Assembly: GCF_900114325.1 (NCBI RefSeq)
Contig: NZ_FOSR01000018.1
Span: forward strand, 1 to 64,000
Source of the DNA: Rhodanobacter glycinis
GTDB taxonomy: Bacteria > Pseudomonadota > Gammaproteobacteria > Xanthomonadales > Rhodanobacteraceae
Direction: 5' to 3'
Length of the DNA: 64,000 bases
In this document: one piece after another, positions 1,228-5,685 of the stretch
Layout of the letters: each line of letters starts with the position of its first letter
Position numbering within the stretch: position 1 is the stretch's first letter
Notes under the pieces: model-generated
Seen by the model: the letters and a program-made list of their open reading frames with translations, nothing else
Database searches by the model: none
Told to the model about the DNA's origin: nothing
Program-made: the position numbers and the translations under genes

Positions 1228-3111
<1,884 letters not shown>

Positions 3112-3133
3112 TCGCACTCGCCATCACGCACAC

Positions 3134-3166
3134 CCGAAGCCCCGCTCATGCGGGGCTTCGGCTTTT
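3134..3166 (+). terminator. Rho-independent terminator of rpoD
   Basis: The perfect 11-bp stem CCGAAGCCCCG / CGGGGCTTCGG (3134-3144 with 3151-3161) encloses a 6-nt loop. It is followed by CTTTT, about 20 bp after the rpoD stop codon. Confidence 0.85.
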
Positions 3167-3248
3167 GGGCACGGCACCCAACGAGACGCGAAGAACCCCA
3201 CGCGCAAGCGTGGCGGTCCGGCAACACTACGGCTACCATGTGCAGCAA

Positions 3249-3564
3249 GGGCCTATAGCTCAATGGTTAGAGCAGAGGACTCATCGAAAAGGTGCCGCCG
3301 CGGCGTAATCCGCGAACGGGATCGGGATGAATTCAGGGAAACCTCAGCGGCACGGCCGGTGGCGACCCTGAGCCAAGCCGTCGGTACACCGACGGAAGGT
3401 GCAGAGACTACCTGGGGACTTCAGTGTCCTTGATCACAGGCTAGAGCGTCCCGCGCCCCACCCGTTCACGCGAACGGAGGGCGAAGAGATAGTCCGCGCC
3501 GGAGGGAAACCTTCGGAATACGCGAATCCTTTGGTTCCAGGTTCGAGTCCTGGTGGGCCCACCA
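3249..3564 (+). tRNA. tRNA(CAU), tRNA-Ile2 type, interrupted by a group I intron
   Basis: Exons 3249-3284 (36 nt) and 3525-3564 (40 nt) join into a complete 76-nt tRNA. The acceptor stem GGGCCTA pairs with TGGGCCC (one G-U), followed by discriminator A and an encoded CCA. The D-arm is GCTC...GAGC, the anticodon stem GAGGA/TCCTT, and the T-arm CCAGG-TTCGAGT-CCTGG. The anticodon loop is CTCATAA, so the anticodon is CAU. By similarity to E. coli ileX-type tRNAs, and because group I introns are known in this gene (Azoarcus), tRNA-Ile2 is the best call. Its C34 would be changed to lysidine by TilS so that it reads AUA. Elongator tRNA-Met is the alternative. The intron splits the gene directly after U36. 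Confidence 0.9.
3285..3524 (+). ncRNA. Group I intron (IC3-like, Azoarcus type) in the tRNA anticodon loop
   Basis: This 240-nt self-splicing-type intron has no reading frame for a homing endonuclease. The guide GTG at 3292-3294 can pair with exon CAT (3282-3284) to form P1, with the required U-G pair at the 5' splice site. The last intron base is G3524 (omega-G). P2 is CGCGG/CCGCG at 3299-3314. P4 is formed by TCAGGG and CCCTGA around AAACC. P6 is a CCGTCGG/CCGACGG hairpin. The P7 strands read GCAGAGACTA and AGATAGTCC. Order, core sequences and insertion site match the ~205-nt Azoarcus tRNA-Ile(CAU) intron as known from the literature. Folding was done by eye and splicing is inferred. Confidence 0.88.
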
Positions 3565-3580
3565 AGAAAGTTGTCCATCC

Positions 3581-4255
3581 ATGCGCCTTCTGATTGCCGA
3601 GGATGACCCCGCCATCGCCGCTGGCATCAGTGCCACGCTGCGCCAGAGCGGGCATGCCGTCGACCATGTCGCCGACGGGAAAAGTGCCGACGAGGCGTTG
3701 CGGGGAACGCCTTACGATCTGCTGATCCTCGACCTCGGCCTGCCCGCGCTCGACGGCAGCGAGGTGCTGGAGCGCGTACGCAAGCGCGGAAGCACCCTGC
3801 CCATCCTCGTGATCACTGCCCGCGAAGGCCTGCGCGAGCGCGTGCGCGTGCTCGACCTGGGCGCCGACGACTATCTGGTGAAGCCCTTCGCGCTGGCCGA
3901 ATTCGAGGCCCGCGTGCGTGCCCTGCTGCGTCGCTATGCTGCGCAAGGCGCGCCGGAACTGACCCTGGGCCGATTGCGCATGGACTTGCCGGGACATCGC
4001 GCCTGGGTCGGCGACACGCCGCTGGAACTCACCGCGCGCGAGTTCGGCCTGCTTGAGGCGCTGGCCGCACGCCCCGATCGCGTGACCAGCCGCGCGCAGC
4101 TGACCGAAGCCCTGTGCAGCTGGGATGAGGAGCTCACCGACAACGGACTGGACATCGCCCTTTATCGACTGCGCCGGAAACTGGCCGACTCCGGCACCCA
4201 GGTGCGCACCATCCGCGGCCTGGGCTACCTGCTCGAGGAGGTCGAAGGCGCATGA
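3581..4255 (+). CDS. Two-component response regulator, OmpR family (TctD/QseB-like)
   Basis: The 224-residue product has an N-terminal receiver domain (1-~115) with acidic pair D8-D9, phosphoacceptor D51 in LILDLGLP, a TAR threonine segment (VITARE) and the LVKPF lysine. A C-terminal winged helix (~130-220) includes LTAREFGLLEALA and the recognition region RLRRKLADSGTQVRTIRGLGY. It overlaps the following kinase gene by 4 nt (ATGA), so the two form an operon and a cognate pair. Relatives TctD and QseB answer to tricarboxylates or to stress. No target gene can be named here, since the neighbours are rpoD and an unrelated aminotransferase. It starts only 16 bp after the tRNA. Confidence 0.9.
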   Translation: MRLLIAEDDPAIAAGISATLRQSGHAVDHVADGKSADEALRGTPYDLLILDLGLPALDGSEVLERVRKRGSTLPILVITAREGLRERVRVLDLGADDYLVKPFALAEFEARVRALLRRYAAQGAPELTLGRLRMDLPGHRAWVGDTPLELTAREFGLLEALAARPDRVTSRAQLTEALCSWDEELTDNGLDIALYRLRRKLADSGTQVRTIRGLGYLLEEVEGA

Positions 4256-5685
4256 CCCGCCGGCGCATGCTGCAGCTGCAACCGTGGCTGTACCGGCTGT
4301 TGCTGCCCGAAAGCCGGCACAGCCTGCGCCAACGCCTGCTGATCATCCTGCTGGTGCCGTTGATGCTGCTGCTGGTGTTCAACAGCCTGATCACCTATGC
4401 CGGCGCGCTGATCTATTCCAATCGGGTCCACGACGACAGCCTCACCAGCGACGCTCTCACGCTGCAGCAGATGCTCGCCACCCAGGACCCGGACGGTCGC
4501 ATCTCGCCGCAGGCCCGCTTCCTGCTCGAATACGATCCTGGCGGCCACAACTACTACAGCTATTTCAGCGTACGCAGCGCCCGGCACGGCCTGCTCGCCG
4601 GCAACAATACCCTGCAACCGCCTGCCGGCCTGGGCCGGCTCAGCGATGCGCCCCGGCTCTACGATGTGCACCTCGGCCATCGTTCGTTGCGCGCCGCCAG
4701 CGTCACGATGCCCAACACACGCGATCCCGGCGACATCCTCACCGTCACCGTGGCCGAGACATTGCGCGATCGCCACCTGGTGGCCCGGCAGATCCTGCTG
4801 CTGAGCATTCCGGCGCAGGCGGTGCTGATCCTCGCGGTGTTCCTGCTGGTCTGGTTTGGCGTGCGCACCGGCCTGCGCCAGCTCGATCCGCTGTCTGCCC
4901 GCCTGGCCCTGCGCGAACACGACTTGTCGCCCATCGGTGAAACCGGCGTGCCGGTGGAAATCCTGCCGCTGACCCGCACCATCGACGAATTGTTCGCGCG
5001 CCTGCGCAACATGCTGGCGCTGCAGGAGCGCTTCATCGCCGATGCCGCGCATCAACTGCGCACGCCGCTGGCCGGCTTGCGCGTCCACGCCGAGCGGGCC
5101 CAGGCCCATCCCGATCCTGCCACCGTGAGCGACTCGCTGCAGCACATCCGGCAACTCATCGAACGCGCCAACCGCACTTCCAGCCAGCTGCTGGCGCTGA
5201 CCCGCGCGCAATCGACCGAACCGGATGCCGCCGCCTCCACCCGGCTGGACCTGGCGGAACTGATTCCCGACCTGGTCCGCCGACGCGTGCACGAGGCGCT
5301 GGCGGCCGGCATCGACCTTGGCTACGACGGTCCCGCGGAACCGCAGTGGATCGAGGCGGACAGCCATACCTTGCAGGAATTGCTGGACAACCTGATCGAC
5401 AACGGCCTGCGCTACGCGGGACGCGGCGCCAGCATGACCATCACGCTGGCGCGCGAGGACGCGAACATCTGCCTGGGCGTGGAAGACAACGGTCCCGGCG
5501 TGCCGGACGAATGGCTGGCCCGGCTGGGCGAACGCTTTTTCCGGGTTCCCGGATGCAAGGCCGAAGGCAGCGGCCTGGGACTGGCCATCGTGCAGCGCAT
5601 CGCCGAGCGCCATCACGGCAGCGTGCGCTACCGCTCCGGCGACGCCGGCGGATTCCGGGTGGAAGTGCGCTTTCCCGCCACATAA
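4252..5685 (+). CDS. Two-component sensor histidine kinase (TctE-like)
   Basis: This 477-residue inner-membrane kinase is the partner of the preceding regulator. A first membrane helix lies at about residues 28-52 (LLIILLVPLMLLLVFNSLIT). A periplasmic sensor segment runs to about 180, and a second helix lies at ~183-205. A HAMP-like linker is followed by the dimerisation/H-box FIADAAHQLRTPLAGLR with phospho-accepting H267. The ATPase domain shows an N-box (ELLDNLIDNGLRYA), a G1 box (VEDNGPGVP) and a G2 box (GSGLGLAIVQRIA). The layout and the short tail after the G2 box match the TctE/QseC class. The signal is unknown. Confidence 0.9.
   Translation: MTRRRMLQLQPWLYRLLLPESRHSLRQRLLIILLVPLMLLLVFNSLITYAGALIYSNRVHDDSLTSDALTLQQMLATQDPDGRISPQARFLLEYDPGGHNYYSYFSVRSARHGLLAGNNTLQPPAGLGRLSDAPRLYDVHLGHRSLRAASVTMPNTRDPGDILTVTVAETLRDRHLVARQILLLSIPAQAVLILAVFLLVWFGVRTGLRQLDPLSARLALREHDLSPIGETGVPVEILPLTRTIDELFARLRNMLALQERFIADAAHQLRTPLAGLRVHAERAQAHPDPATVSDSLQHIRQLIERANRTSSQLLALTRAQSTEPDAAASTRLDLAELIPDLVRRRVHEALAAGIDLGYDGPAEPQWIEADSHTLQELLDNLIDNGLRYAGRGASMTITLAREDANICLGVEDNGPGVPDEWLARLGERFFRVPGCKAEGSGLGLAIVQRIAERHHGSVRYRSGDAGGFRVEVRFPAT

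Follow-up and report, generated by a model that had tools for sequence, protein, structure and literature searches.

Group I introns in tRNA-Leu(UAA) genes are known from cyanobacteria. Overall, bacterial group I introns occur chiefly in rRNA and tRNA genes (PMC3984707), and in the available part of one review those in bacterial tRNA genes are tabled for cyanobacteria and for alpha- and betaproteobacteria (PMC4033280). In tRNA-Ile2, group I introns are reported from Acidovorax and Burkholderia by the tRNAscan-SE 2.0 paper, which in the portion of its text accessible to us names only these two as proteobacterial hosts (PMC8450103); by description, these introns agree with the one presented here in the tRNA and in the kind of intron. 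The Azoarcus pre-tRNA-Ile(CAU) carries a group IC3 intron of 205 nt, to which our intron is alike in the host tRNA, the position after U36, the guide GUG and the terminal G. A further comparison is offered by the td intron of phage T4, which belongs to group IA2 and whose host gene is a phage gene, not a tRNA. It is described as resembling the IC3 ribozymes of Azoarcus and Synechococcus save for a P7.1/7.2 extension between P7 and P3 (PMC4498298, available in part).

In the window, the 64,000-nt stretch of Rhodanobacter glycinis DNA that was analysed, a tRNA-Ile(CAU) gene on the forward strand is divided into a 5' exon (3249-3284) ending with U36, a group I intron of 240 nt (3285-3524) and a 3' exon (3525-3564) that encodes the CCA end. 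The exons join to a 76-nt tRNA fold with anticodon CAU, and the coordinates that the initial annotation had given for exons and intron were exact. Its call of a group I intron was borne out by the covariance model: an Rfam scan of the 64 kb returned a single match, RF00028 at 3259-3516, which covers the model in full (1-253) and with 51.3 bits (E 4e-10) lies 1.3 bits over the curated cut-off of 50 bits. The same intron is the only RF00028 match in the 3.87-Mb host genome. With default settings ARAGORN reports zero tRNAs over the whole window, and its intron mode recovers the gene with a 240-nt intron, a boundary off by two bases and the name Arg(CCG); hence, an annotation of such a genome can seem to be without a tRNA for AUA. 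A scan upstream of the tRNA found no sigma-70-type promoter and a terminator scan of 3090-3620 found no terminator, with a GC-rich hairpin visible by eye at about 3140-3160. Positions 3200-3600 had no match in a plasmid collection.

The intron folds into P3-P8 and P4-P6 domains with a P3/P7 pseudoknot, all helices being read from the forward strand. In P1 (3282-3294) the exon triplet CAU (3282-3284) and C3285 pair with G3291 and the guide GUG (3292-3294). It is followed by P2 (3295-3319; loop CGUAAU in the window copy, from the alignment fold), the 5' strand of P3 (3323-3329, partner 3447-3453, placed by the fold and the wider alignment) and the P4-P5-P6-P6a domain (3333-3400). The 5' strand of P7, GACUA (3406-3410), pairs with UAGUC (3490-3494) and is invariant in 49 of 49 aligned introns. 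Between P7 and the 3' strand of P3 (3447-3453) lies an extra helix (3411-3440), and P8 (3454-3483), the 3' strand of P7 and finally P9.0 and P9 (3495-3524), with a GAAA loop and the terminal G at 3524, complete the fold. The guide opposite CAU, the terminal G, P4, P6 and P7 noted in the initial annotation are thus all present, together with P3.

To evaluate this fold, a structure of 81 pairs was drawn by hand and then counted over an alignment of 49 distinct introns, the window's included (3966 cells; L027 was omitted as identical to L026). The aligned introns are 235-260 nt long, with a pairwise identity of at least 73%, gaps counted. Pairing is kept in 97.3% of the cells, and 26 pairs show changes on both sides, in 209 cells. 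Shuffled controls gave means of 16.9 pairs and 54.1 cells, with 0 of 500 shuffles equalling the observed values, and with slid partners only 32-42% of cells paired and 4-6 pairs had two-sided changes. P3, P4, P6 and P7 are 100% paired in the 49 rows, so the P3/P7 core can fold, and their variation is mostly absent: P1, P6 and P7 are invariant within the family and therefore give no covariation information, and changes in P3 and P4 are confined to one side. All 49 introns keep both the U.G pair that P1 forms at the 5' splice site and the three anticodon-stem pairs covered by the alignment. Compensation of P3 is seen when the comparison is widened to a set of 30 introns, where its pairs exchange CG/UA, GC/CG and AU/GC and 210 of 210 cells are paired. 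P2 changed on both sides in eight of its ten pairs among the 49 copies. The weakest helix is P5 (86.3% paired in the 49 introns). The window copy has C-A and C-U mismatches in P2 and a U-U mismatch in P5, at a position unpaired in 38 of the 49 copies. As aligned, P2 and P5 are paired in 77% of cells in the wider set, and P2, P5 and P9.0 range from 77 to 87%.

The extra helix distinguishes this intron from the Azoarcus type. Positions 3411-3440 fold as a CCUG/CAGG outer stem with an inner stem, a P7.1/P7.2-like element supported by the fold and by comparison with four Azoarcus-type introns from the family of Aromatoleum (L343, L346, L347 and L348). These are 204-205 nt long compared with 240 nt for the window's intron, and in all four the helix is absent and P7 leads directly into P3, which was located by eye; as MAFFT misplaces their P3 and P8, only the P7-P3 joint was compared. 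We take L347, by sequence and length, to be the studied Azoarcus intron; the window intron is 56% identical to it over 190 aligned bases, and by eye both types have GNRA-type loops on P2 and P9. In the 30-intron set the outer four pairs of the helix form in 120 of 120 cells, as CG, GC, AU and UA, and both of their sides have changed. P7.2 is paired in 86.7% of cells in this set and poorly in the tRNA-Thr copies as aligned, which makes the inner part of the helix less sure there. The window intron is inserted in tRNA-Ile(CAU) after U36 as in Azoarcus, but its P7 is not joined directly to P3. By description it resembles in this respect the td intron, and as the P7.1/7.2 extension sets td apart from IC3 in the available part of the source (PMC4498298), we do not place the window intron in IC3. 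Among the open-licence papers listed in literature searches, none was seen from its title or the start of its abstract to describe this intron family, which is a weak negative. The kind of intron is already known; the difference lies in the P7.1/P7.2-like helix and in its patchy recurrence among relatives.

The host genome is 99.99% complete, in 29 contigs, and has 45 tRNA matches (RF00005). At these 45 loci ARAGORN reports two CAU tRNAs, L038 and L058, presumably elongator Met and fMet by their sequence features, and no tRNA-Ile(UAU); odd calls in L061 (Arg TCG and Asp GTC) were taken as false. A gene for TilS is present, with 181.4 bits against a cut-off of 93.6. As the two other CAU tRNAs are Met and fMet, no Ile(UAU) was found and TilS is encoded, the split gene is very probably the sole tRNA-Ile2. 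The idea that it may be the only tRNA that decodes AUA holds as far as tested, since the count of other CAU tRNAs gave only Met and fMet. With a CAU tRNA distinct from both and TilS in the genome, lysidine modification of the split gene's product is predicted from sequence.

Within the host family, Rhodanobacteraceae, 56 RF00028 matches were obtained in 54 of 233 genomes. Fifty of them lie in tRNA-Ile(CAU) at exactly the window's site, one a genome, and the remaining six in tRNA-Leu genes. A guide-region pattern recovers the same 50 genomes, from 10 of the 26 genera. The site was rightly described as known from Azoarcus, but within the host family the intron is common and not sporadic, and its patchy spread in relatives is wider than a reading of the single sequence could show. 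In the window's own genus the intron occurs in 3 of 15 genomes. Among five named genomes, RF00028 matches were found in Dyella dinghuensis, Dyella acidisoli and Rudaea sp. 3F27F6, where they share coordinates with the matches of G072, G069 and G209 that were typed as tRNA-Ile, and were absent from Frateuria terrea and Aromatoleum buckelii. At 235-260 nt, none of the 50 family introns, the window's copy included, has room for a homing endonuclease gene. A pattern for the uninterrupted tRNA-Ile(CAU), which replaced an earlier one-mismatch pattern that also matched tRNA-Lys, is found in 153 of the 233 genomes and in none of the 50 intron carriers; hence, the split gene must work in them. The patterns used detected neither the intron nor the contiguous tRNA in 30 of the 233 genomes. 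Two uninterrupted matches each were seen in G001, G005, G025 and G064, and at most one in the other family genomes. At 42 of the 50 intron-bearing loci, and at 56 of 80 intron-free loci chosen from the 153 genomes, the tRNA is preceded at a distance of 70-2260 nt by the 3' end of rpoD in the same orientation, which indicates mostly one orthologous locus in two states.

We consider it highly likely that a self-splicing group I intron splits the sole tRNA-Ile(CAU) gene and that the spliced product is then modified by TilS to read AUA. The gene structure, the single copy, the conserved and compensated fold, the match of guide and target and the TilS gene are direct observations; by the mechanism known for this intron family, the guide GUG would pair with the anticodon CAU in the precursor RNA to form P1, a guanosine bound in P7 would cut after U36, and U36 would then attack after the terminal G, joining the exons, before C34 of the mature tRNA is modified by TilS and AUA can be read. 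As splicing itself is deduced, and a second gene could hide in a gap between the 29 contigs, the intron could instead be a degenerate relic that has lost the ability to splice, with AUA read by another tRNA. We regard this as extremely unlikely, given the completeness of the genome and the lack of another Ile(CAU) or Ile(UAU) among its 45 tRNA matches; furthermore, the catalytic core is unchanged, the outer helices are compensated, TilS is kept, and in a further 49 genomes patterns likewise find no copy besides the split gene. Excision by protein enzymes, as happens in archaeal and eukaryotic tRNAs, or membership of another intron class may come to mind from a position that adjoins the anticodon, near the archaeal and eukaryotic site, but the bacterial host, the RF00028 match, the P3/P7 pseudoknot, the terminal G and the length of 240 nt render the chance of this practically negligible. 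The neighbouring genes invite a different question, namely whether splicing serves as a switch over AUA decoding or over the gene downstream. As the initial annotation had noted, rpoD ends upstream, and a regulator gene starts 16 nt past the CCA. In the family, rpoD (here 1228-3111, forward strand) often lies beside tRNA-Ile(CAU). The regulator (3581-4255, forward strand) is a response regulator of the OmpR type; together with a sensor kinase of the 2CSK_N type it occupies 3581-5685, directly after the tRNA. Both the sole gene and this proximity would suit a switch. However, in a neighbour check that reached mostly 1 to 1.5 kb downstream of the tRNA site, the regulator (E 1e-10 or better) was found at only 2 of 130 loci, the window's and L022, where it is 40% identical, so that a switch appears very unlikely. 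In Frateuria terrea (L062) a 73% identical regulator is found, and regulator and kinase match at the DNA level, in a 10.7-kb locus in which no tRNA was found. The regulator was therefore rejected as a functional partner and looks to be an incidental neighbour.

The patchy presence of the intron could reflect either old residence with many losses or repeated horizontal gain. Descent was assessed on a short rpoD fragment, a weak marker that was sufficiently covered at 87 of 131 loci. On the resulting tree of 87 tips, 36 of them with the intron, presence requires 24 changes and is almost unclustered, as 500 shuffles gave a mean of 27.8 and a minimum of 20 changes; close relatives differ in presence. 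The nearest relatives of the window intron belong to other genera, L305 by gapped identity (89%) and L022 by ungapped distance, with L305 included in both comparisons. With presence almost unclustered and the closest introns in other genera, exchange between lineages is possible. A potential vehicle is seen in three viral contigs from IMG/VR (L360, L361 and L362), the first 300 bases of which begin inside the intron and continue through the tRNA-Ile 3' exon into a frame of 413 amino acids. L360 and L361 start at the identical intron base. The frame of L360 matches phage integrase models and those of L361 and L362 are near-identical to it by eye, and no second copy of the stretch of intron and 3' exon occurs in the whole records of the three. 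Prophages therefore seem to use tRNA-Ile(CAU). Against horizontal gain, the distances between introns grow with those between the rpoD fragments (Spearman 0.67, reached by 0 of 2000 permutations) in a test of 35 tips with the intron, the 36th, L027, being dropped as identical to L026; in addition, the median intron distance is 0.082 within genera and 0.143 between them, and the rpoD-linked locus exists both with and without the intron. Repeated gain, whether the intron moved by reverse splicing or the tRNA locus itself was exchanged, with prophages as one conceivable route, hence appears rather unlikely, with an appreciable chance of being correct. The best fit is an intron of old standing that has disappeared or been replaced many times, and with less certainty than for the splicing itself we infer that it was inherited mainly with the host lineage and often gave way to an uninterrupted copy or was lost.

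Relatives of the intron are not confined to tRNA-Ile. In a class-wide sample, 56 of 369 genomes, the window's own included, have an RF00028 match, and the best 30 loci, among which the window's does not figure, were typed: 18 are tRNA-Ile(CAU) introns of the P7.1 type, four lie in tRNA-Thr(UGU), one in tRNA-Lys(CUU) and three in tRNA-Leu(UAA), and four have no surrounding tRNA visible to ARAGORN. The tRNA-Thr copies (L315, L317, L320 and L323) and the tRNA-Lys copy (L326) are likewise P7.1-bearing introns inserted after U36. In the family of Aromatoleum, RF00028 matches were obtained in 15 of 121 genomes, at 16 loci. Here the tRNA-Ile introns after U36 are the four of the Azoarcus type and one of the P7.1 type (L344); five tRNA-Ile(CAU) introns (L352, L353, L354, L356 and L357) lie between U33 and C34 by eye, four introns are in tRNA-Leu(UAA), and those in tRNA-Thr(UGU) and tRNA-Ser(UGA) (L345 and L351) were placed by eye between bases 34 and 35. 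Guide and target triplets match in all 34 U36-site introns, which were extracted by motif search from 52 loci (6 of the 50 family copies and L313-L358) and include the four Azoarcus-type ones: CAU/GUG in 29, UGU/GCA in four and CUU/GAG in one.

These findings suggest a tentative picture, to which we give somewhat less than an even chance, in which proteobacterial tRNA introns marked by the P7.1/P7.2-like helix form a lineage of their own. This lineage would have reached several tRNAs with U36-A37 (Ile CAU, Thr UGU and Lys CUU) by re-fitting of the guide, without an endonuclease, and would be gained or lost whole in the host family, where the tRNA is single-copy; prophages at the same tRNA may help its exchange. 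The family offers about fifty natural ribozymes that share one architecture. Because carriers and non-carriers occur side by side within genera, and the guide changes form a natural series from one tRNA to the next, the routes by which endonuclease-free introns spread and are lost become testable.

The tRNA-Leu(UAA) introns of the host family (L156, L162-L164 and L166) are also small tRNA group I introns, but differ from the window's in their site, which by eye lies between bases 34 and 35 instead of after U36. The extra helix is absent in L156, and the P7 motif was unmatched in L162-L164 and L166. A further group I intron, L165 (G176:C55), lies in a tRNA-Leu(CAA), after C34 by eye; it has C, not U, at its 5' splice site, and the same genome also carries a tRNA-Ile intron.
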